Source: Astropecten irregularis
Taxonomy: Eukaryota > Echinodermata > Asteroidea > Paxillosida > Astropectinidae
NCBI GenBank assembly: GCA_963971285.1
Contig: OZ020258.1
Span: 10,808,614-10,872,613 of the forward strand
DNA length: 64,000 nucleotides
Direction: 5' to 3'
The notes beneath the pieces were generated by a model. The model was given only the letters and a program-made list of their open reading frames with translations, made no database searches and was not told the DNA's origin. The first letter of the stretch is position 1; the number at the start of each line of letters is the position of its first letter. Of this stretch, positions 4,871 through 43,048 are shown piece by piece. The position numbers and the translations under genes were made by a program.

Positions 4871-5240
4871 TTAAAGGTAGTATCATACTTTGGTAAGAAA
4901 CCAAAACAGAAATGTTCACAGATTAACGTATAACTTACAGGGTATGAAGATGGTGGTGGTAGAAACATACCGTTAAAATGTTTCCGCCTGAAATGCTGTA
5001 TTTATCCAGAAATTAGTAAAACAACGACCGAAAATCTTTTTGATCTTTTAAAAGATAAAAAAATAAAAGAGAAAAGACTTAAGAAATACTGTGGCTGTTT
5101 TTCACCGTTTTCTCAAATAGTGGGCACCGTATGCAACTGAAATTTTTACAGATGACTGTTACTGTTGTATCTGTCTTGATATTTTTGTCCATGAATCTGA
5201 TTTTTTTGTTATAAAAACCAAAGTATGATATTACCTTTAA
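4871..5240. repeat. MITE, TTAA-flanked family, copy 1 (370 bp)
   Basis: Both ends are TTAA, followed by inverted termini: TTAAAGGTAGTATCATACTT at the left, and the near complement AAGTATGATATTACCTTTAA at the right. A second copy in the same orientation lies at 20,835-21,199 and is similar along its whole length. TTAA at both ends suggests piggyBac-type mobilisation (inference from target-site preference). No transposase is encoded. Confidence 0.85.
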
Positions 5241-13760: not shown

Positions 13761-13920
13761 GTAATCTCTTGTGTGAGAGTGTGTGGTTCTGAGAAGAACC
13801 GTTGGTATTATCTCAACGTTCCAGACAGTGTACTCTGTTCGTACTCGGGAGAGTATTATGAACGTCGAGATAATACCTACGGTATTTCTCAGAACCACAC
13901 ACTCTCACAGAAGAGATTAC
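13761..13920. repeat. 160-bp hairpin element
   Basis: Starts GTAATCTCTTGTGTGAGAGT and ends with its near complement; the arms are about 60 nt. The right arm and its downstream flank recur at about 25,487-25,575. Confidence 0.8.
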
Positions 13921-14553: not shown

Positions 14554-15954
14554 GTAAGGCACCAGACTAGTCAGGAGCAGTCTTGGCAAACTGCCTGCCA
14601 TAGGTCAAGCAAGGGCGCTCTGTCTGCCATCCTTTGACAGTACACATCGCATTACAGTTACGTCCAAATATCTCAATGCATTCTGGTTGTATGAGATAAT
14701 CTGAATGAATAATTTACTGTATCAAAAATTTACTTCCTTAAAACTGTTCACATTTTTTCCTGTAAATTTTGCTTTCAAATGCAGCGTGTGACACAGTTCC
14801 TGAATACTAGATCAGTAATTGACTCAATTGAAAAGCTGACCTAAAAAAAGGAAAATGTGTTAACGTTGAGAAAAATTTGAACGTAATTATTTGAACGAAA
14901 GGTCACAGATGGAAATGGCAAACTTGTTTTTTCTTTGCATTAATAATTATAACCCAAACCATCCTGAATCAGCCCGAATCCATTTCCATATATTGAAAGA
15001 CTGAAAACTTTACATCCCAGGCCCTACTGTAGGTTTGTGAAATTTGGAAGGTTGCCGGACTGTATAGGCACGGCACTGAAATTTATCGCAATAAGCTGAG
15101 AGATACCACACACTGGAGGGTCTTTGGGGCAGATTCAGGAAGGATCCTAGTCATAATGTCCAGTCACAGTGCGATCATTTAACTGGCTTTACAGCGACTC
15201 CGACCTGTTGAGCTATAAAATGTACTGTGGATTGCTTTCAAAGAGCAAACCTATTAGACCTCATGCATATTTGCTTGCAATCTTTGCATGTATCGGAAAT
15301 GTCAGTAGGTTCGTGTTTGCATGCTGTCGTCTGTGAAGAAGACATGGAGGGTTTTCTTGGGACCATGCCTGATGCATACCTTTGACACTTGATGATTTAT
15401 TGTACCCCTCATAATGTTTACCAGGTGGAAGGGCTGCATTACAGAATCCAAATAGGCTTGTTCCTTTCAGAACACTCCAGCTGGAGGGTTTGGGAGTTTG
15501 ACACAGTCTGCCAGTAACCTTCACTGAGAGTAGGAGGGTCATTCCCTCCAATACACTCCAGCTGGAGGGTTTGAGAGTTTGACACAGTCTGCCAGTAACT
15601 GTCACTGAGAGAAGAAGGCTCATTCCCTCCAATACACCCCAGCTGGAGGGTTTGGGAGTTTGATACAGTCTGCCAGTAACCTTCAGTAAGTGTAGGAGGG
15701 TCATTCCTTCCAATACACTCCAGCTGGAGGGTTTGGGAGTTTGACATAGTCTGCCAGTAACCTTCACTGAGAGAAGAAGGGTCATTCCTTCCAATACACT
15801 CCAGCTGGAGGGTTGGGGAGTTGACATAAAGTCTGGCATCACTTGTTGGAGGGTTACAGGAGGGTTACCGAGTATTTGACAAGAACCTTTTTTCTTGCAG
15901 TCACTGTGCTTGTTTGTTGTGTGTAATTCATGAAAACCTCTTAAACCCAAACAG
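14554..15954 (+). other. Intron 5, protein 4.1 gene
   Basis: GTAAGG to AAACCCAAACAG. It holds the first block of the 81-bp minisatellite (15,458-15,850). A minus-strand open frame over this block reads through the following exon and is not considered a gene. Confidence 0.7.
15458..15850. repeat. 81-bp minisatellite, block 1 (about 4.5 copies)
   Basis: Successive copies are 81 bp apart, for example the CTCCAGCTGGAGGGTTTGG motif at about 15,475, 15,556, 15,637 and so on. The same unit forms a larger block at 26,547-27,210. As 81 is a multiple of three, one minus-strand frame stays open with a 27-residue periodic peptide. Confidence 0.95.
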
Positions 15955-19388: not shown

Positions 19389-19466
19389 CAGCTAGCTCTG
19401 TGGCCTATTGGTATGACATCTGCACTAGAAAGCAGGAGGTCATGGGTTCGAATCCCACCTGAGCCA
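19389..19466 (+). repeat. tRNA-derived SINE head
   Basis: A tRNA-like stretch with an A-box-like segment (GTGGCCTATTGGTA) and a perfect B box (GGGTTCGAATCCC, about 19,444-19,456). The acceptor arms do not pair well, so it is a SINE promoter or decayed tRNA and not a functional tRNA gene. A B-box remnant also stands at about 16,893-16,910. Confidence 0.65.
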
Positions 19467-20429: not shown

Positions 20430-20531
20430 ATCATTGAAAAGTGAGCAATGTAAAATTGACTGGAGCGGGATTCGAACCAGCGACCTCCGAAATACCGTAT
20501 CGGCACTCTTACCAACTGAGCTATTCCCGGG
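20430..20531 (-). repeat. tRNA-derived SINE, minus-strand copy
   Basis: Read on the minus strand, this gives an A box (TAGCTCAGTTGGTAAGAG), then a B box (GGTTCGAATCC) and the shared tail beginning CTCCAGTCAATTTTAC. This is the same family as 22,582-22,700. Confidence 0.78.
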
Positions 20532-20834: not shown

Positions 20835-21199
20835 TTAAAGGTAGTATTATACTTTGGTAAGACACCAAAACAGAAATGTTCACAGATTTATGTATAACTT
20901 TCAGGGTATGAAGATGGTGGTGGTAGAAACATTTCATTAAAAATTGTCTGCCTGAAATGCTGTATTTATCCAGAAATGAGTAAAACAACAACCAAAAATC
21001 TTTTTGATCTTTTAAAAGATCAAAAATAAAAATAAAAAGACTTCAGAAATACTGTGGCTGTTTTTCACTGTTTTCTCAAAAAGTGGGCACCGTATGGGAC
21101 TGAAATTTTCACAGATGACTGTTACTGTATCTTCCTTGATATTTTTGCCCATGCATCTGTATTTCTTTGATAAAAACCAAAGTATGATATTACCTTTAA
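20835..21199. repeat. MITE, TTAA-flanked family, copy 2 (365 bp)
   Basis: Begins TTAAAGGTAGTATTATACTT and ends GTATGATATTACCTTTAA. It is collinear with 4871-5240. Confidence 0.88.
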
Positions 21200-22581: not shown

Positions 22582-22700
22582 GGCTGGATGGCTCAGTTGG
22601 TAGAGCGCCTGTACGGCATTCAGGAGGTCGCCGGTTCGAATCCCGCTCCAGTCAATTTTACTTTGTTCACTTTTCACTGACTTTCCTTCCATTGTTTGTT
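22582..22700 (+). repeat. tRNA-derived SINE with well-preserved cloverleaf head
   Basis: Positions 22,582-22,653 can fold like a tRNA: the acceptor GGCTGGA pairs with TCCAGTC, the D arm is GCTC...GAGC, and the T loop is TTCGAAT inside a B box. The T stem has a C-C mismatch and the anticodon stem a T-T mismatch. The same head and CAATTTTAC tail occur at 20,430-20,531, so it is called a SINE. A real tRNA with a family of pseudogenes cannot be excluded. Confidence 0.75.
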
Positions 22701-25320: not shown

Positions 25321-25785
25321 TTTCGTGACAAATCAAATTATGAACAGACCGCATATGTTCTATCAACTTCATACAAAAGTATCCTTTAATGTGAAGCTTA
25401 ACCATTGCTGGGTTACATTATCGTAGTTGACTCACTCTCCTAAGGACGAACAGAGCACACTCTTTGAAAAATAGACGAGAAAATACCACAGGTTCCTCTC
25501 AGAACCACACTCTCACAGAAGAGATTACATGGTGTCACCACAAACCTACCTTCCTTTTAGTACTTCCACCATGCATAGCTTCAATTGTTATAATAATAAT
25601 ACTGTAATCTTGTATAGTGCCAACTCCAACGAAAAGGTTGCTCAAGGCTCAGAATCTGCACTAAGCTCTTCACAATTGAGAAATGATTCAGAAAAACCTT
25701 ATAACAAAGGAGACTAGGGCCGATTTCATGAAGCACCGAGTCCGATCTTAAGTGCTAAAGAATCCAGCATATTATTTACTTTGTG

Positions 25786-26546: not shown

Positions 26547-27210
26547 CGGTCATTCCTTACAATATACTCTAAGCTGAAGGGTTTGGGAGTTTGACATAGT
26601 CTGTCAGTAACCTTCACTGAGAGTAGGAGGGTCACTCCCTCCAATACATTCCAGCTGGAGGGTTTGGGAGTTTGACATAGTCTGCCAGTAACCTTCACTG
26701 AGAGTAGGAGGGTCATTCCCTCCAGTACACTCTATCCGGAGGGTTTGGGAGTTTGACATAGTCTGCCAGTAACCCTCACTGAGAGTAGGAGGGTCAGTCC
26801 CTCCAGTACACTCTATCCGGAGGGTTTGGGAGTTTGACATAGTCTGCCAGTAACTTTCACTGAGAGTAGGAGGGTCAGTCCCTCCAATACACTCCAGCTG
26901 GAGGGTTTGGGAGTTTGACATAGTCTGCAAGTAACCTTCACTGGGAGTAGGAGGGTCACTCCCTCCAATACACTCCAGCTGGAGGGTTTGGGAGTTTGAC
27001 ATAGTCTGCCAGTAACCTTCACTGAAAGTAGGAGGCTCATTCCTCCGATACACTTCCAGCTTTAGGGTTTGGGAGTTTGACATAGTCTGCCAGTAACCCT
27101 CACTGAGAGTAGGAAGGTCATTCCCTCCAATACACTCCAGCTGGAGGGTTTGGGAGTTTGACATAGTCTGGCAGTAACCTTCACTGAGAGTAGGATTGTC
27201 ATTCCTTCTC
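26547..27210. repeat. 81-bp minisatellite, block 2 (about 8 copies)
   Basis: Tandem units with the core CTGGAGGGTTTGGGAGTTTG and CCAGTAACCTTCACTGAGAG, 81 bp apart. It is the same unit as 15,458-15,850, 11 kb upstream in the same gene. A 202-codon minus-strand open frame is a by-product of the 27-codon period. Confidence 0.95.
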
Positions 27211-32560: not shown

Positions 32561-34595
32561 AACTTATGAAGCCCAATTCGTGATTGATGGTAGATATACG
32601 TACGAAGCCCAATTCGTGATTGATGGTAGATACACGTACGAAGCCCAATTCGTGATTGATGGTAGATACACGTACGAAGCCCAATTCGTGATTGATGGTA
32701 GATACACGTACGAAGCCCAATTCGTGATTGATGGTAGATACACGTACGAAGCCCAATTCGTGATTGATTGTAGATACACGTACGAAGCCCAATTCGTGAT
32801 TGATGGTAGATATACGTACGAAGCCCAATTCGTGATTGATGGTAGATACACGTACGAAGCCCAATTCCTGATTGATGGTAGATACACGTACGAAGACCAA
32901 TTCGTGATTGATGGTAGATACAAGCACGAAGCCCAATTCGTGATTGATGGCAGATATACGTACGAAGCCCAATTCGTGATTGATGGTAGATACACGCACG
33001 AAGCCCAATTCGTGATTGATGGCAGATATACGTACGAAGCCCAATTCGTGATTGATGGCAGATATACGTACGAAGCCCAATTCGTGATTGATGGCAGATA
33101 TACGTACGAAGCCCAATTCGTGATTGATGGCAGATATACGCACGAAGCCCAATTCGTGATTGATGGCAGATATACGTACGAAGCCCAATTCGTGATTGAT
33201 GGGAGATACATGCACGAAGCCCAATTCGTGATTGATGGCAGATATACGTACGAAGCCCAATTCGTGATTGATGGTAGATACACGCACGAAGCCCAATTCG
33301 TGATTGATGGCAGATATACGTACGAAGCCCAATTCGTGATTGATGGTAGATACACGCACGAAGGCCAATTCGTGATTGATGGTAGATATACGTACGAAGC
33401 CCAATTCGTGATTGATGGTAGATACACGCACGAAGCCCAATTCGTGATTGATGGTAGATACACGCACGAAGCCCAATTCGTGATTGATGGCAGATATACG
33501 TACGAAGCCCAATTCGTGATTGATGGTAGATACACGCACGAAGGCCAATTCGTGATTGATGGTAGATATACGTACGAAGCCCAATTCGTGATTGATGGTA
33601 GATACACGCACGAAGCCCAATTCGTGATTGATGGCAGATATACGTACGAAGCCCAATTCGTGATTGATGGTAGATACACGCACGAAGGCCAATTCGTGAT
33701 TGATGGTAGATACACGCACGAAGCCCAATTCGTGATTGATGGCAGATATACGTACGAAGGCCAATTCGTGATTGATGGCAGATATACGTACGAAGCCCAA
33801 TTCGTGATTGATGGTAGATACACGCACGAAGCCCAATTCATGATTGATGGCAGATATACGTACGAAGCCCAATTCGTGATTGATGGTAGATACACGCACG
33901 AAGCCCAATTCGTGATTGATGGCAGATATACGTACGAAGCCCAATTCGTGATTGATGGCAGATATACGTACGAAGCCCAATTCGTGATTGATGGCAGATA
34001 CACGTACGAAGCCCAATTCGTGATTGATGGTAGATACACGCACGAAGCCCAATTCGTGATTGATGGTAGATATACGTACGAAGCCCAATTCGTGATTGAT
34101 GGTAGATACACGTACGAAGACCAATTCGTGATTGATGGTAGATACAAGCACGAAGCCCAATTCGTGATTGATGGTAGATACACGCACGAAGGCCAATTCG
34201 TGATTGATGGTAGATACACGCACGAAGCCCAATTCGTGATTGATGGCAGATATACGTACGAAGCCCAATTCGTGATTGATGGCAGATATACGTACGAAGC
34301 CCAATTCGTGATTGATGGCAGATATACGTACGAAGCCCAATTCGTGATTGATGGCAGATATACGTACGAAGCCCAATTCGTGATTGATGGCAGATATATG
34401 TACGAAGCCCAATTCGTGATTGATGGCAGATATACGTACGAAGCCCAATTCGTGATTGATGGCAGATATACGCACGAAGGCCAATTCGTGATTGATGGTA
34501 GATATATGTACGAAGCCCAATTCGTGATTGATGGTAGATATACGTACGAAGCCCAATTCGTGATTGATGGTAGATACACGCACGAAGCCCAATTC
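32561..34595. repeat. 36-bp satellite, left block (about 56 monomers)
   Basis: A perfectly phased array with a 36-bp period and the core CCCAATTCGTGATTGATGG. The plus-strand open frame reads YEAQFVIDGRYT repeatedly; all three minus-strand frames are also open. This block is marked by variants GGCAGATAT and CACGCACGAAG, which I do not see right of the retrotransposon. It ends at AATTC, exactly where the DIRS element starts. It is regarded as non-coding satellite because no frame is preferred. Confidence 0.98.
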
Positions 34596-34754
34596 CATTA
34601 CAGAAAACACCTCACCTCTGTTTACCTACATTTGCATATCAGCGCGCATGCGCCAGAAACCTCGCTGAAAAGTAGCCCAAAGCGCACCCTCCGCGCCCAC
34701 TGCATGTCCCCGTATATAAGCCCCAGTGACCCGAAGGATCGTCCTAGTTTTTCA
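34591..34754. repeat. Left inverted terminal repeat of the DIRS element
   Basis: Begins (AATT)CCATTACAGAAAACACC and is the inverted counterpart of 39,896-40,058. The outer 45 bp or so is exactly complementary to 39,770-39,814 in the internal complementary region. It contains ATTTGCAT, GCGCATGCGC and TATATAAG. Confidence 0.93.
34630..34720 (+). promoter_or_regulatory. Putative DIRS promoter in the left ITR
   Basis: In order: octamer-like ATTTGCAT (34,630-34,637), NRF1-like palindrome GCGCATGCGC (34,644-34,653), and a TATA box TATATAAG (34,713-34,720), about 170 bp upstream of the gag ATG. The same elements are mirrored in the right ITR (TATA complement at about 39,931-39,938), so antisense transcription is possible. 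Motif identity is seen; function is inferred. Confidence 0.6.
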
Positions 34755-34891
34755 GCGACGCGTACTATAGAAACCTTTAGTTATACTAGTGCTACATACT
34801 GTACAATACACACGGCATTCACGTTGCTGTACACGTGCTGTGTTCGTTCAATAGTATATTACACGTACACGCTTCAGCCAACAAAGCCAAA

Positions 34892-36687
34892 ATGGCGGAC
34901 ACAGCCAAGACTCGTCAGAGACTTTCTAGCGTTTCCGCAAAACCTCCCTCCAAGCCCAAGTCTGACCGGCACAAGAATGTTCCCGTCTCTACCGTGATGC
35001 AGCCACCGGTAACGACGGAAGGAATCTCCCCGGGAACGAGCCCTCGGCCAACCAATTCCAGGGCCTCAACCCGGCAAATCCCGCACACATATGGAAGTCT
35101 TCGAGAGCACATGCAGGCCGTGGAGGCCGACGTGCATGGAATTGCGGGTTGGCGGGGCCCGGCGATCGATGCTTTAACGCCCCTCGAGCGCACGGTTAGC
35201 CCCGCCAGGTCACAGAGGCAAGGGGCACCACCACCACCACCGCTACCACCGCCTTCTTCGTTTTCATCATCGTCACATTCCGGCCACGATTTCCCAGCCA
35301 CCTGGTCTCACCCTTCACCATTCGCCACAGGTCCATCGCAGCATTTTCAACCGCGTTTCCACCCGACATCCGGGTCTTTTTTCCCTAACGATCCGCGTCA
35401 GTATGGCTACGAGTTTCCTTCCTTCCCACCGATGTTCCCAGCGAGCTATTCACGGGAAAGTTCTCGGTATTTCTCCAGGAACTACGACGTTGTCCCCCGG
35501 GAAAGTGCTCCTTTTTCCCCACACCGTTCAGCTGATCACCGCAGTCGCCCCGATCGGCCTACCGCCGGCGATGTTCGGCGTGATTTCCGGGCGCGTTCGC
35601 GCTCCACGGATCGACACCGGCGCCATTCTCGTGATCGTTCTCGGTCACCGCTGCCACACGGGGACCGACATCGCTCTACTTCTAGATCCCTGTCACAGGA
35701 TTCTTTTTCTTCATTCCATTCTACTGAAGAAGATCACCTCACCCTTTCTCAGCGGGCCAACTTGACGCATACGGAAGTGGGTAAGCTCCTTCAGTTTCCT
35801 TCTCCCCCCCCAACTGAGCCTGCCCGTCCATCCTATCGCAGGGAATCCAATGCAGGTAAGCTAAGCGTGCCTCCTTTTTCCTTTAGATAGCACATGTGCA
35901 GACATTATGAGCGAGGCTTTTCGTCAGGTCCAGAGCAGGCTTTCTGTCCCACCTTTGAAACGTGCGTTTTCTAGCTTGTTTGTCACCAGCTCGGCTGATT
36001 CCGAGAAATTCTTCTCGACTCCTACTCTTTCTTCTGAAGCCAAAGATTTCCTCAGACATGAGAACCCGCTGTCACGCAAGTACTTCCAAGATTCTGTATC
36101 CAGACTTCTGGACCAGAGACTCTCGTCCTTAGACTCACGCTTGCGTCAAGGGGCCAAGGTCGTTTTCCCTTTTGCTTTCTGACGCTCTTGCTCGATGCTC
36201 TGGGGACCCCTCCTTGGTTAATGCAGATTGCCTTCAGGAGATGTTTCGTTTTCTCGATGATTGCCTCACCCTTTGCCTACAGGGCTTTGCTATAGGGTCG
36301 GCTACCACCTCTCTCTTGCGTCGTTCGCTGGTTATCGACAAGCTGTCCCTCCCCTCCGTTGGTGCTAAAGACCGTCTTCTGGCCCTACCACTGGAAGGGA
36401 ACGACCTCTTCGACCACAAGTTTGGCGAGACTGTGCTGCAGGAGGCCAAACGCCTCAAGGCCGAGGACAAACTCGATCTCCGTCGTCCTAGCAAACGCCC
36501 CTCGTCATCTACCCAGCCTCCGCCTAAGAAGAATAGGTCTTTCTCCTCCTACCAGAGATCATCTTATCGTTCTAGGAGGGACGCACCCCGGTACTCATCC
36601 TCTTCATGGAGCCGCAGTAAACCTCAGCCCCCCAGATTCGCGCGACCCTCTAAGCCCCGAGGTTCGCGAGGCAGCAAGGGCTTCTGA
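34892..36687 (+). pseudogene. DIRS ORF1 (gag-like), interrupted frame
   Basis: Start ATG at 34,892 in good context (CCAAAATGG), beginning MADTAKTRQRL. The first frame runs to TAG at 35,888-35,890 and is rich in Ser/Pro/Arg, with runs of prolines and an RSRSTDRHRRHSRDRSRS-type segment that suggests nucleic-acid binding. The reading then continues in a second frame (to about 36,165; MSEAFRQVQSRL...) and a third (to 36,687; ends with an Arg/Ser-rich tail). A 31-bp stretch with GT...AG ends (35,856-35,886) exactly accounts for the first shift. The second shift, near 36,160-36,180, looks like a one-base indel. No zinc knuckle is seen, as usual for DIRS gag. Either the copy is damaged or expression needs splicing or frameshifting. 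Confidence 0.75.
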
Positions 36688-38749
36688 CTTCCAAGGGAAC
36701 ATTCCGCCACCCACCGGCCCAGTAGGAGGTCGTCTCTCGCTATTCATCCTTCAATGGCCTCTCATCACAGCAGACTCCTGGGTTCTTCAGACAGTTTTGA
36801 CAGGCTACCGACTGGAATTTACCAGCCCCCCTCCTGTGGGCCCTCCCTTGCGAGTCACTCCTGTTCCAACAGACGCAGACCGACGGGCCGCTTTGGAAAG
36901 GGAGATCCTTGCTCTCTTGGACAAGAACGCCATCTCGGCACTACCCCAAGGGTCGACTCTCGGCTTCACCTCTACCTTCTTCCTGGCTCCGAAGAAGTCC
37001 GGAGAATGGCGACCTATCATCAACTTGCGGCCTCTCAACTTCCACATCAAGCCAAAACGTTTCCGCATGGAAACTCTCTCCACGGTTCTGCAATCACTGA
37101 CCGTCGGCTGGTGGGCAGCCTCGATCGACCTGAAAGATGCCTATCTGCATATTCCAATCCATCCGCATCACCGGCGATTTCTGCAATTCATGTACCAGGG
37201 TGCAGCTTACCAGTTTCGTTGCCTCCCGTTCGGCCTGTCCACGGCCCCGCGAGTTTTCACAAGAGTCACCAAGGTAATTGCAGCTGCCCTACGCCAAAGA
37301 CATGTTCATCTCTTCATGTATCTGGACGATTGGCTCATCGTAGGCCCCTCTCGACAGGAAACCGCCGAGGCCCTCCTACAAACTGTTCGGCTCACACTCA
37401 AGCTTGGCTTCATCATCAATATAGAGAAGTCCTTCCTGACTCCTTCCCAGCAGCCTACCTACCTCGGGGCAGTTATCAACCTGGCCTCTGGCAGAGCTTC
37501 TCCGACCCTGGAACGGTTCCAGGCTCTTCAGGATTGTATCCACATCTTCATGGTCACTCGCTCCCTTCCGGCCAGCTTATGGCTCCGACTACTGGGCATG
37601 ATGGCAAGCCTGATAGACCTGGTCCCTTGGTGCAGATTGCACATGCGGCCCTTTCAGCTACACCTTCTCTATCACTTCCGTCCACGCAGGGACCCGGTCT
37701 CCAAGGAAGTCCCTGTCACACACCTTATCCGCAATCAGCTCCTCTGGTGGCAGATGCGGAACAACCTGATGAGTGGCTTCGAATTCCCTCATCCCTCTCC
37801 ATCCATCTCCCTCACCACAGATGCCTCGAATCTGGGCTGGGGAGCCCACCTTGGGGACCAGACCGTTGCCGGCACCTGGACGTCCGATCAACGCAGTCTA
37901 CACATCAATCATCTGGAGCTACTGGCAGTGGCCAAAGCTCTGGAGTCCCTCCAGGAGAGAGTCCAAAACCAGCTCGTCCTTATCCGGACAGACAACTCCA
38001 CTGTGGTCTCTTACATCAACCGTCAGGGGGGAACCCACTCTCCGTCTCTGTGCCTTGCCACGTGGGATCTTCTCCACTGGTGCATCTCTCGTCGGATCTC
38101 ACTCCAAGCTACTCATCTGGCAGGAAAGAAGAACTCGCTGGCCGATGCACTTTCAAGAGGCCGAATCATGCCAACAGAATGGTCTCTCAACCCCGTTGTG
38201 GTCCGGCACATCTTCAACGTTCTCGGGACGCCTCATGTGGACCTGTTTGTGTCCAACCTCAACCATCGGCTTCCAACCTTCTGCTCACGCCATTTCCATC
38301 CCCTGGCATGGAAAGTGGACGCCCTCAGCTTCAACTGGACCGGGATCCATGCTTACGCCTTCCCTGCAATCTCTCTGCTTCACCGGGTGCTGACCAAAAT
38401 AGAAGCCGAACTATCCAGGGTGATCCTCATAGCACCCTTCTGGCAACGACAACCTTGGTTTCCACGCATTCTGGACCTCCTGATTCAGTCACCAGTCAAG
38501 CTCCCCAACCGGAGAGATCTCCTGATTCAGCCCAAGTCTCAGTTCGTACACCCGGACCCAGCCTCCCTTCATCTTTGTGCCTGGATGCTGTCAAAATCTC
38601 CCTCAGAGAAGCTGGCTTTTCGGCAGAAGCTTCAGCCCTGGCAGCCAGGGGCAGACGAGAGTCCACTAGACGAACTTACGATAGCCGACTTCTCCACTTC
38701 TTCAAGTGGTGTAAGGAGAGAGCTATCGATCCCCATTCTGCATCTTTAA
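36359..38749 (+). CDS. DIRS ORF2: reverse transcriptase, RNase H, methyltransferase-like domain
   Basis: An open frame of 796 codons that overlaps the end of the gag frame. The frame opens at a TTG, and no convincing ATG lies before the RT domain, so it is probably expressed with gag. The RT starts at about residue 185 with GEWRPIINLRPLN; the palm motif is YLDD at 321-324, preceded by LPFGLSTAPRVFTR. RNase H follows, with Asp488 (TTDAS), Glu520 (HLELLAV), Asp545 (RTDNST) and Asp596 (LADALSRG), so the catalytic set is complete. After it comes a region (about 620-720) with HVDLFVSNLNHRLP and YAFPAISLLHRVL, the conserved block called Dam/methyltransferase-like in DIRS elements. The usual DIRS YAFPPF-type motif is here FPAI, so activity is doubtful. 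The last 440 bp overlap the recombinase frame. Confidence 0.93.
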   Translation: MVLKTVFWPYHWKGTTSSTTSLARLCCRRPNASRPRTNSISVVLANAPRHLPSLRLRRIGLSPPTRDHLIVLGGTHPGTHPLHGAAVNLSPPDSRDPLSPEVREAARASDFQGNIPPPTGPVGGRLSLFILQWPLITADSWVLQTVLTGYRLEFTSPPPVGPPLRVTPVPTDADRRAALEREILALLDKNAISALPQGSTLGFTSTFFLAPKKSGEWRPIINLRPLNFHIKPKRFRMETLSTVLQSLTVGWWAASIDLKDAYLHIPIHPHHRRFLQFMYQGAAYQFRCLPFGLSTAPRVFTRVTKVIAAALRQRHVHLFMYLDDWLIVGPSRQETAEALLQTVRLTLKLGFIINIEKSFLTPSQQPTYLGAVINLASGRASPTLERFQALQDCIHIFMVTRSLPASLWLRLLGMMASLIDLVPWCRLHMRPFQLHLLYHFRPRRDPVSKEVPVTHLIRNQLLWWQMRNNLMSGFEFPHPSPSISLTTDASNLGWGAHLGDQTVAGTWTSDQRSLHINHLELLAVAKALESLQERVQNQLVLIRTDNSTVVSYINRQGGTHSPSLCLATWDLLHWCISRRISLQATHLAGKKNSLADALSRGRIMPTEWSLNPVVVRHIFNVLGTPHVDLFVSNLNHRLPTFCSRHFHPLAWKVDALSFNWTGIHAYAFPAISLLHRVLTKIEAELSRVILIAPFWQRQPWFPRILDLLIQSPVKLPNRRDLLIQPKSQFVHPDPASLHLCAWMLSKSPSEKLAFRQKLQPWQPGADESPLDELTIADFSTSSSGVRRELSIPILHL

Positions 38750-39651
38750 CAGCCATTGGAGATTTTCTCCTTCACCTCTTCAACTCCGGCCTCCAGATCT
38801 CCACTGTCAAGGGGTACAGATCAGCCATCAGTGCCATTCACAATGGCTTCCAAGACGGTACGACCATGTCTTCTAGCATACCTTTGTCGCAGCTACTACG
38901 GGGCATGTTCATCGAACGGCCCCCCACCAAAAAGCTTATTCCGTCCTGGGACTTGGGTTCTGTTCTCTCTTTGCTTTCCAGGCCGCCCTTCGAGCTGCCC
39001 GGATCCTCCTCTCTCCACCAACTTACCATTAAGACGGCATTCTTACTAGCTGCAGCCACAGCCCGACGAAGGAGTGAGCTCCATGCCCTGTCTCTAGAAC
39101 CGGGCCACATCCGCTGGGAGCCGGGCGGCGTTCGTCTCATCCCTAACATAGAATTCCTAACCAAGAATCAGTCTGCCAACTTCTCCCCTCCTGACATCTT
39201 TGTTCCTAGCTTAACGGCGTTCTCTACAGTACAGGAGGATAAATGGTGGTGCCCCGTACGAGCTCTCAAGTATTACATCGCTTGTACTCAGCTGCTCAGA
39301 GGTAACATCAAACAGCTGTTCATCACGACCATCCAGCCTCATCGTCCAGCCTCTGTGACCACTATCGCTCGCTGGATATCCGAGGCAATCCCCCATGTAA
39401 GCCCTCAGAGCGATAGCCAAGGACCGAAATCCAAAGCCCATGAGACACGCAGCACGTCAACCTCCTGGGCTCATCTTCTTGGAGTCTCTGTTCCAGACAT
39501 CATGAAGGCAGCATGCTGGAAGAATCCATCCACCTTCACGTCTTGCTACCTGAAGGACGTGGTCCAAACAGAGGGACTCATGGGCAGGAAAGTCCTCCAA
39601 GAAGTCGGCCGGTCAGCAGCCCGCAAGTACCGGAAAGCTCCTCACAACTAG
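38308..39651 (+). CDS. DIRS ORF3: tyrosine recombinase
   Basis: It performs strand exchange for integration of the circular DNA intermediate (DIRS family knowledge). The frame is open from 36,754, but that part is a shadow of ORF2. The ATG at 38,308 gives 447 residues, a normal size. The N-terminal core-binding part has STRRTYDSRLLHFFKWC and ISTVKGYRSAISAIH. The catalytic set is complete: Arg254 (ARRRSEL), His378 and Arg381 (AHETR), and Tyr414 (FTSCYLKD). It ends with RSAARKYRKAPHN and a TAG. No frameshift or stop is present, so the recombinase could be functional. The exact start is uncertain and might be further downstream. Confidence 0.93.
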   Translation: MESGRPQLQLDRDPCLRLPCNLSASPGADQNRSRTIQGDPHSTLLATTTLVSTHSGPPDSVTSQAPQPERSPDSAQVSVRTPGPSLPSSLCLDAVKISLREAGFSAEASALAARGRRESTRRTYDSRLLHFFKWCKERAIDPHSASLTAIGDFLLHLFNSGLQISTVKGYRSAISAIHNGFQDGTTMSSSIPLSQLLRGMFIERPPTKKLIPSWDLGSVLSLLSRPPFELPGSSSLHQLTIKTAFLLAAATARRRSELHALSLEPGHIRWEPGGVRLIPNIEFLTKNQSANFSPPDIFVPSLTAFSTVQEDKWWCPVRALKYYIACTQLLRGNIKQLFITTIQPHRPASVTTIARWISEAIPHVSPQSDSQGPKSKAHETRSTSTSWAHLLGVSVPDIMKAACWKNPSTFTSCYLKDVVQTEGLMGRKVLQEVGRSAARKYRKAPHN

Positions 39652-39769
39652 TTAGGCAGCTCCCGGGTATGTCTAAACAAACCTTTTCTTACTTGGTAGA
39701 AGTAGTTTAGACCCTCGTTCACTCTGCATGTCCCTTCCCCCCCTAGCTTATATCTAACGGTGCTACTCT

Positions 39770-39870
39770 GCAAATGTAGGTAAACAGAGGTGAGGTGTTT
39801 TCTGTAATGGAATTCCCCAAATCCGAAGGGATTTTCCATTCTAATAAGAAAACACTCACCTCTGTTTACC
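39770..39870. repeat. Internal complementary region of the DIRS element
   Basis: Its left half (39,770-39,814) is exactly complementary to the outer end of the left ITR. Its right half (39,811-39,870) is complementary to the outer end of the right ITR with one mismatch. The halves meet at GGAATTCC (39,809-39,816). In the DIRS replication model this region templates the join of the two ends in the circular intermediate. Confidence 0.95.
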
Positions 39871-39895
39871 ACCCTCCCTACTCCGAGAGGATTGA

Positions 39896-40084
39896 TGAAA
39901 AACTAGGACGATCCTTCGGGTCACTGGGGCTTATATACGGGGACATGCAGTGGGCGCGGAGGGTGCACTTTGGGCTACTTTTCAGCGGGGTTTCTGGCGC
40001 ATGCGCGCTGATATGCAAATGTAGGTAAACAGAGGTAAGTGTTTTCTTATTAGAATGGAAAATCCCTTCGGATTTGGGGAATTC
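39896..40084. repeat. Right inverted terminal repeat with terminal extension
   Basis: 39,896-40,058 is the inverted copy of the left ITR. It is followed by an extension of about 21 nt (40,059-40,079, ending GGATTTGGGG) that is absent from the left end but present in the internal complementary region. A longer right ITR of this kind is typical for DIRS. AATTC at 40,080-40,084 is shared with the satellite. Confidence 0.93.
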
Positions 40085-43048
40085 GTGATTGATGGTAGAT
40101 ATACGTACGAAGCCCACTTCGTGATTGATGGTAGATACACGTGCGAAGCCCAATTCGTGATTGATGGTAGATATACGTACGAAGCCAATTCGTGATTGAT
40201 GGTAGATACACGTACGAAGCCCAATTCGTGATTGATGGTAGATATACGTACGAAGCCCAATTCTTGATTGATGGTAGATACACGTATGAAGCCCAATTCA
40301 TGATTGATGGTAGATATACGTACGAAGCCCAATTCGTGATTGATGGTAGCTATACCTATGAAGCCCAATTCGTGATCGATGGTAGATATACCTATGAAGC
40401 CCAATTCGTGATTGATGGTAGATATACGTACGAAGCCCAATTCGTGATTGATGGTCGATACACGTACGAAGCCCAATTCGTGATTGATGGTAGATATACC
40501 TATGAAGCCCAATTCGTGATCGATGGTAGATATACCTATGAAGCCCAATTCGTGATTGATGGTAGATATACGTACGAAGCCCAATTCGTGATTGATGGTC
40601 GATACACGTACGAAGCCCAATTCGTGATTGATGGTAGATATACCTAAGAAGCCCAATTCGTGATTGATGATAGATACACGTACGAAGCCCAATTCGTGAT
40701 TGATATAGTAGATATACGTACGAAGTCCAATTCGTGATTGATGGTAGATATACGTACGAAGCCCAATTCGTGATTGATGGTAGCTATACCTATGAAGCCC
40801 AATTCGTGATTGATGGTAGATATACGTACGAAGCCAAATTCGTGATTGATGGTAGATATACGTACGAAGCCCAATTCGTGATTGATGGTAGATACACGTA
40901 CGAAGCCCAATTCGTGATTGATGGTAGACACACATACGAAGCCCAATTCGTGATTGATGGTAGATACACGTACGAAGCCCAATTCGTGATTGATGGTAGA
41001 CACACATACGAAGCCCAATTCGTGATTGATGGTAGATATACGTACGAAGCCCAATTCGTGATTGATGGTAGACACACGTACGAAGCCCAATTCGTGATTG
41101 ATGGTAGATATATGTACGAAGCCCAATTCGTGATTGATGGTAGATATACGTACGAAGCCCAATTTGTGATTGATGGTAGACACACGTACGAAGCCCAATT
41201 CGTGATTGATGGTAGATATACCTATGAAGCCCAATTCGTGATTGATGGTAGATACACGTACGAAGCCCAATACGTGATTGATGGTAGACACACGTACGAA
41301 GCCCAATTCGTGATTGATGGTAGATACACGTACGAAGCCCAATACGTGATTGATGGTAGACACACGTACGAGGCCCAATTCGTGATTGATGGTAAATATA
41401 CGTACGAAGCCCAATTCGTGATTGATGGTAGATATACGTACGAAGCCCAATTCATGATTGATGGTAGATACACGTACGAAGCCCAATTCGTGATTGATGG
41501 TAGATATACGTACGAAGCCCAATTCGTGATTGATGGTAGATATACGTACGAAGCCCAATTCGTGATTGATGGTAGATATACCTATGAAGCCCAATTCGTG
41601 ATTGATGGTAGACACACGTACGAAGCCCAATTTGTGATTGATGGTAGCTATACCTATGAAGCCCAATTCGTGATTGATGGTAGATACAAGCACGAAGCCC
41701 AATACGTGATTGATGGTAGACACACGTTCGAAGCCCAATTCGTGATTGATGGTAAATATACGTACGAAGCCCAATTCGTGATTGATGGTAGATATACGTA
41801 CGAAGCCCAATTCATGATTGATGGTAGATACACGTACGAAGCCCAATTCGTGATTGATGGTAGCTATACCTATGAAGCCCAATTCGTGATTGATGATAGA
41901 TACACGTACGAAGCCCAATTCGTGATTGATGGTAGATATACGTACGAAGCCCAATTCGTGATTGATGGTCGATACACGTACGAAGCCCAATTCGTGATTG
42001 ATGGTAGATATACCTATGAAGCCCAATTCGTGATTGATGATAGATACACGTACGAAGCCCAATTCGTGATTGATGGTAGATATACGTACGAAGCCCAATT
42101 CGTGATTGATGGTAGCTATACCTATGAAGCCCAATTCGTGATTGATGGTAGATATACGTACGAAGCCAAATTCGTGATTGATGGTAGATATACGTACGAA
42201 GCCCAATTCGTGATTGATGGTAGATACACGTACGAAGCCCAATTCGTGATTGATGGTAGACACACGTACGAAGCCCAATTCGTGATTGATGGTAGATATA
42301 CGTACGAAGCCCAATTCGTGATTGATGGTAGACACACGTACGAAGCCCAATTCGTGATTGATGGTAGATATACGTACGAAGCCCAATTCGTGATTGATGG
42401 TAGACACACGTACGAAGCCCAATTCGTGATTGATGGTAGATATACCTAAGAAGCCCAATTCGTGATTGATGGTAGATATACGTACGAAGCCCAATTCGTG
42501 ATTGATGGTATCTATACCTATGAAGCCCAATTCGTGATTGATGATAGATACACGTACGAAGCCCAATTCGTGATTGATGGTAGATATACGTACGAAGCCC
42601 AATTCGTGATTGATGGTAGATATACGTACGAAGCCAAATTCGTGATTGATGGTAGATATACGTACGAAGCCCAATTCGTGATTGATGGTAGATACACGTA
42701 CGAAGCCCAATTCGTGATTGATGGTAGACACACGTACGAAGCCCAATTCGTGATTGATGGTAGATATACGTACGAAGCCCAATTCGTGATTGATGGTAGA
42801 CACACGTACGAAGCCCAATTCGTGATTGATGGTAGATATACGTACGAAGCCCAATTCGTGATTGATGGTAGACACACGTACGAAGCCAAATTCGTGATTG
42901 ATGGTAGATATACCTAAGAAGCCCAATTCGTGATTGATGGTAGATATACGTACGAAGCCCAATTCGTGATTGATGGTATCTATACCTATGAAGCCCAATT
43001 CGTGATTGATGATAGATACACGTACGAAGCCCAATTCGTGATTGATGG

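Follow-up and report, generated by a model that had tools for sequence, protein, structure and literature searches.

DIRS1-like retrotransposons carry inverted terminal repeats (ITRs), a right extension, an internal complementary region (ICR) matching both ends, a reverse transcriptase (RT) with RNase H, and a tyrosine recombinase, according to the accessible part of PMC3266345. In the model given there, the junction of a circular DNA copy recombines with a short identical genomic sequence, and no target duplication arises. Integron cassettes, as described in the portion of PMC4792948 available to us, undergo exchange of the bottom strand only, at AA/C, after which the junction is resolved by replication. 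Here we describe a 5.5-kb element (positions 34591-40084) that interrupts 36-bp satellite DNA in a 64,000-nucleotide stretch of the Astropecten irregularis genome (the window, meaning the whole stretch analysed). Comparison of its copies points to a single, fixed crossover position between the circle junction and a loosely matching chromosomal target.

The element is a DIRS1-like tyrosine-recombinase retrotransposon, a known kind of element, and belongs to a multicopy family. ITRs, an ICR, RT/RNase H and a recombinase domain together make up this anatomy. We found ITRs, an ICR matching both outer ends, RT and RNase H, and no target-site duplication. The short sequence shared with the circle junction is a further likeness to the elements covered in that part of PMC3266345, as is the lack of a target duplication. 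The element and its flanks are organized as follows.

32568-34590, plus strand: left array of the 36-bp satellite, 56 monomers from 32575, of a private monomer subtype
34591-34595, plus strand: left border AATTC; comparison of copies assigns AA to the target and TTC to the circle
34611-34754, plus strand: left ITR, 144 nt, 98% complementary to the right ITR
34835-36687, plus strand: probable gag region in three frames (34835-35890, 35907-36182, 36172-36687)
36359-38749, plus strand: pol frame, with Pfam matches RVT_1 (reverse transcriptase, 2.4e-21) and RT_RNaseH (RNase H, 2.6e-06)
38590-39651, plus strand: tyrosine recombinase, with the N-terminal SAM-like domain PF02899 above cut-off (2.4e-05)
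39762-39870, minus strand: ICR, whose reverse complement gives the predicted circle junction GGGG-AATTC-CATTAC
39896-40039, minus strand: right ITR, pairing with the left ITR (144 nt, 98%)
40040-40079, plus strand: outer right end (divergent ITR and right extension), complementary solely to the ICR
40080-40084, plus strand: right border AATTC; AA is assigned to the circle and TTC to the target
40085-64000, plus strand: right array of the 36-bp satellite, 663 monomers to the window end, running on to at least C22:10876500

The gag assignment is probable, from position and composition; a Pfam search of 34835-36687 gave no match. The C-terminal part of the recombinase weakly resembles Cre (E 0.12), and HxxR and Y were spotted by eye. 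Pfam matched only the edge of the recombinase in 38152-38746, the region after RNase H that may resemble the methyltransferase domain of DIRS1-like elements. The pol had no match in a collection of viral contigs, and none of 13 pattern matches in a collection of other genome contigs was confirmed. Identity to the window copy is 98.0 to 99.2% in eight sister copies and falls to 78% in others; differing by 0.7-1% from its nearest sisters, the window copy is young.

Borders and the position of the crossover

AATTC stands at both borders and in the junction predicted from the ICR, as the first-pass annotation had reported. The left border reads CCC-AATTC-CATTAC, its AATTC ending at 34595, and the right border reads GGGG-AATTC-GTGATT, its AATTC beginning at 40080. 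Counted from AATTC, the first mismatch to the ICR comes after 46 identical nt at the left end and after 47 at the right end, and the ICR junction, AATTCCATT, is present in 26 of 27 aligned copies (L028 was left out). The satellite breaks off on the left and takes up again on the right at one and the same position of the monomer, and the joined flanks make an intact, in-phase array. A shared run of at least 5 bp between unrelated sequences has a probability of ∼0.005, and within the monomer 2 of 72 combinations of phase and orientation yield one; given the published 3-bp junction, the two extra shared bases are not significant (p ∼0.16). An EcoRI-like cloning artefact was rejected as the source of AATTC, since the site reads CAATTC in the satellite and nearly all aligned copies hold the junction in their ICR. 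The same annotation had proposed recombination between circle and monomer without loss or duplication. This accounts for both borders, and within the monomer we saw neither duplication nor loss; its 'without loss' carries one caveat, as monomer variants differ sharply between left and right and whole monomers may have been lost or rearranged.

We compared copies from the host genome (476 Mb, 168 contigs). Scoring 40 of 123 right-end candidates gave 28 loci with usable right ends, and the copy number is thus a lower bound. Both sides were fetched for 20 copies and 7 further left ends were added; 26 left borders were counted. AA followed GGGG at all 28 right borders and the bases beyond varied (L023 was read with one more G, a one-base shift). 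TTC preceded CATTAC at 25 of 26 left borders (TTT in L040), and the two bases before it varied, with A at -1 in 19/26 and at -2 in 12/26. With AA kept at right borders and TTC at nearly all left ones while the neighbouring bases vary, the circle appears to supply these bases and the target the rest. On this comparison, the crossover is fixed between AA and TTC.

The 19 usable border pairs, the window copy included, all fitted this one point. Target and circle mismatched just 3′ of it in 14 pairs, and 10 pairs had a mismatch within the two bases on its 5′ side. The target profile of the 18 pairs without the window copy (L046 was absent from the first version and included in the final one) showed A at -1 in 15/18, T at +1 in 15/18 and C at +2 in 12/18, and no preference at base 0. 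The resulting consensus, approximately A-A-N-T-C/T, loosely resembles the circle junction. The published model asks for an identical 3-bp target, whereas here the middle base differed in 14/19 pairs. This limits the wording of that model and not the membership of the family among DIRS1-like elements, because the published table itself holds eight elements with such differences.

Paralogous empty sites provided an independent check. For L043, target paralogs run through the join at four places, three of them gap-free, and show G/A where the borders carry G to the left and A to the right of the point. One paralog of the L037 target, located within the right flank of that copy, crosses the join and continues for 11 bases, and three paralogs of the L034 target span it with small gaps, one of them at the join itself. 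The sites of all three copies fit the crossover rule and the lack of target duplication, in one case with a gap of 1 bp. The window itself holds a dispersed repeat (4871-5240 and 20835-21199), a relative of which was struck by L034; the corresponding paralogous empty sites are 21047-21179 and 5084-5220.

Published elements behave in the same way. The table of 28 DIRS1-like elements in the accessible part of PMC3266345 lists ten with unequal start and end trinucleotides, of which AmDIRS1 and BfDIRS2 have a 2-bp junction only and are hence uninformative. Among the eight informative elements in that table, the junction equals the start when base 2 or 3 differs (7/7) and the end when base 1 differs (1/1). 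All eight thus match a crossover between bases 1 and 2, an outcome with a chance probability of 1/256. A literature search, with subscription papers including the main DIRS reviews lying outside it, found no statement of a fixed crossover rule.

One relative deserves separate mention. The recombinase of L045 (G000:C16:9698272-9701403) is only 49% identical in protein, and its ends and border rule are unchanged. Termini of this family may therefore have outlasted the divergence of the protein, or they may have been exchanged.

A probable route from circle to chromosome

Taken together, these results make it very likely that the circle of a young DIRS1-like copy recombined once with a loosely matching satellite monomer, at a fixed crossover and without duplication or loss. 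A circular DNA copy with the junction GGGG-AA/TTC-CATTAC would meet a loosely matching chromosomal site, and the recombinase would catalyse the reaction. At the left border, TTC and everything after it would come from the circle; at the right border, everything up to AA would come from the circle, and the chromosome would give the other bases. One strand exchange may decide the product, with replication completing it.

Several observations weigh against this account. The monomer subtype changes at or near the element although the copy is young, and a plain insertion leaves that change unexplained. The window site scores 1.08 on the family target profile, where the other sites score 0.9 to 4.7. 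The satellite makes up ∼0.01% of the genome, so that 28 uniform insertions would give ∼0.003 satellite matches, and one was seen. A search for an empty site of L045 found none, and two of the 20 fetched copies (L044 and L049) were omitted for want of a usable left border.

How many strands are exchanged is a separate question. Double-strand exchange is the canonical reaction of tyrosine recombinases, and the target preference on both sides of the point agrees with it. It is also the reaction that the available text of PMC4792948 contrasts with that of integrons. Staggered exchange with random strand retention should, however, produce two crossover points, and no second point appeared in the informative pairs, 14 on the right side and 10 on the left (under equal odds, ∼6e-5 and ∼1e-3). 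The lone point may reflect a strict bias in strand retention, an overlap near zero or a one-strand exchange. We give a little under an even chance to an ordinary double-strand staggered exchange whose fixed point comes from constant strand retention in repair or replication, or from a very short overlap.

Because the single crossover point is fixed, it suggests a one-strand exchange, a serious if unproven candidate. In a more specific and tentative version, which we rate as rather unlikely, the circle junction of a DIRS element would fold as a single strand and exchange one strand with duplex DNA at a cut in N/TT (complement AA/N); replication would finish the product, as for integron cassettes, and the ITRs and right extension would form the stem and tip of the folded substrate. 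The junction tip folds better than shuffled sequences to a modest degree (z -2.3 to -2.8; 2 to 6 of 200 shuffles equal it), and covariation support is lacking because the stem is nearly invariant among copies. If the folded-substrate reading is true, the ITRs and right extension, so far unexplained as recombination features, gain a role.

The subtype change raises the possibility that the border is secondary, and that satellite rearrangement or misassembly set the element at the boundary of two monomer subtypes. In the left array, 41% of monomers have C at 16, 36% have C at 26 and 11% have G at 33; in the right array each of these variants stays below 5%. Variants of the right array, at 19, 25 and 28, are absent on the left and reappear in short pieces of three other C22 arrays, where left-type monomers were not seen in the stretches read. 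The switch lies between the element and ∼5 monomers to its right. Both ends are, however, intact to the last base and follow the border rule of the family, and the array stays in phase. The insertion itself was therefore clean, and later turnover of half-arrays would equally give a subtype change. Given that the window copy is young, the boundary either existed before the insertion or arose when one half-array was replaced or amplified afterwards. We regard a secondary border as improbable.

A reaction with no circle is more improbable still. In it, a linear copy with TTCCATT and GGGGAA as its ends would enter preferred sites by blunt insertion, and the apparent sharing would be no more than target preference. 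The borders alone fit it, because there is no overlap between the constant parts of the left and right ends, as does the absence of preference at target base 0. Yet the target preference (A, A, then T, C) resembles the circle junction, the joined ends in the ICR of 26/27 copies are explained by a circle, and the frames searched yielded no DDE integrase.

The 36-bp satellite as a target

As previously annotated, the satellite carries about one AATTC per 36-bp monomer; we counted 57 across the left array (2.0 kb) and 638 across the right one (23.9 kb). The satellite core has 875 exact matches genome-wide, 522 of them inside the window, and scaling to monomers puts the satellite at roughly 40-50 kb, ∼0.01% of the 476-Mb genome. 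All of the 100 core matches listed belong to contig C22, which has at least three further arrays outside those of the window. The core had no match in the collection of viral contigs.

So regular a site could make the satellite a repeated landing pad, the recombinase recognising AATTC(G) once per monomer and the family preferring the satellite. AATTC at both borders and in the junction, its density in the satellite, and one of 28 right ends falling in ∼40-50 kb of 476 Mb against an expectation of ∼0.003 all speak for it. The first-pass annotation had asked whether AATTC is always shared and whether copies are enriched in the satellite, and neither was borne out. Exact AATTC occurred at 4/28 right and 10/26 left borders, and as the whole target in 1/19 pairs, the window copy alone. 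Likewise, the window copy (L001) was the only satellite match among 55 loci tested (28 loci with right ends, 20 full copies at those loci, and 7 left ends), and 27 of 28 right ends lay outside the satellite. On the profile of the 18 other pairs, the satellite has 0.57 times the mean odds of an 86-kb background, and no scored DIRS end lay at the three other listed C22 arrays.

The low expectation figure rests on one event chosen for being conspicuous. Such an insertion cannot show enrichment, and it is still unlike the prediction of uniform insertion. Copies at unrelated sequences, which that annotation took as counting against its idea, are largely what we found; the matter is kept from closing by the tiny satellite, where one match exceeds the expected number, and by the share of candidates scored. 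A preferred landing pad is not supported, is the least probable of the explanations considered here and can be left aside for the present; very likely, the AATTC of the satellite is one acceptable site among many. A literature search found no match combining DIRS, 'satellite DNA' and '36 bp'.

The window contains several other features. An Rfam histone 3′ UTR stem-loop match at 13761-13805 on the minus strand (35.6 bits, cut-off 34) lies within a repeated inverted sequence (13761-13920) with a similar copy at 25476-25595. A tRNA-Ala match and two weaker tRNA matches lie at 22582-22654, 19394-19466 and 20461-20527; 20431-20509 and 22602-22680 are inverted copies, perhaps tRNA-derived repeats. 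An 81-bp tandem repeat forms two arrays 11 kb apart (15472-15826 and 26548-27205), both open on the minus strand.

Relation to other tyrosine-recombinase systems

Comparison of copies replaces a vague 3-bp overlap model with a precise crossover position and an origin for each base, and the rule also holds for all eight informative elements, from unrelated hosts, of the published table. The ATT/ATT ends of the window element fit the commonest class in the accessible part of PMC3266345. The model of that paper, in the same part, has an identical 3-bp target, whereas in the window family the target may differ and the crossover falls between bases 1 and 2 of the trinucleotide.

Other elements of this enzyme class are reported at particular places. 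DIRS-1 of Dictyostelium (PMC5633606) and Ngaro of Cafeteria (PMC8547959) belong to the same order of elements, and the available parts of both reviews report non-random locations. The preference described in those parts concerns other mobile elements and not a satellite motif. Nimaviral tyrosine-recombinase elements specific for telomere repeats and rDNA likewise sit in host repeats, as far as the consulted part of PMC10871703 describes them. Those elements enter their repeat repeatedly, according to the same part, whereas the window family did so once in 28 right ends.

Integron cassettes offer a parallel to the crossover itself. Host, replication route and recombinase family differ between integrons and DIRS elements. 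Both, as far as the accessible part of PMC4792948 goes, use a tyrosine recombinase, a fixed crossover in a short AAC/GTT-like triplet, and microhomology only. If the rule reflects a one-strand exchange, an uncommon reaction of bacterial integrons would also exist in animal, fungal and amoebal retrotransposons. The DIRS cut N/TT, with its complement AA/N, would then have the same shape as the integron AA/C described in that part of PMC4792948.

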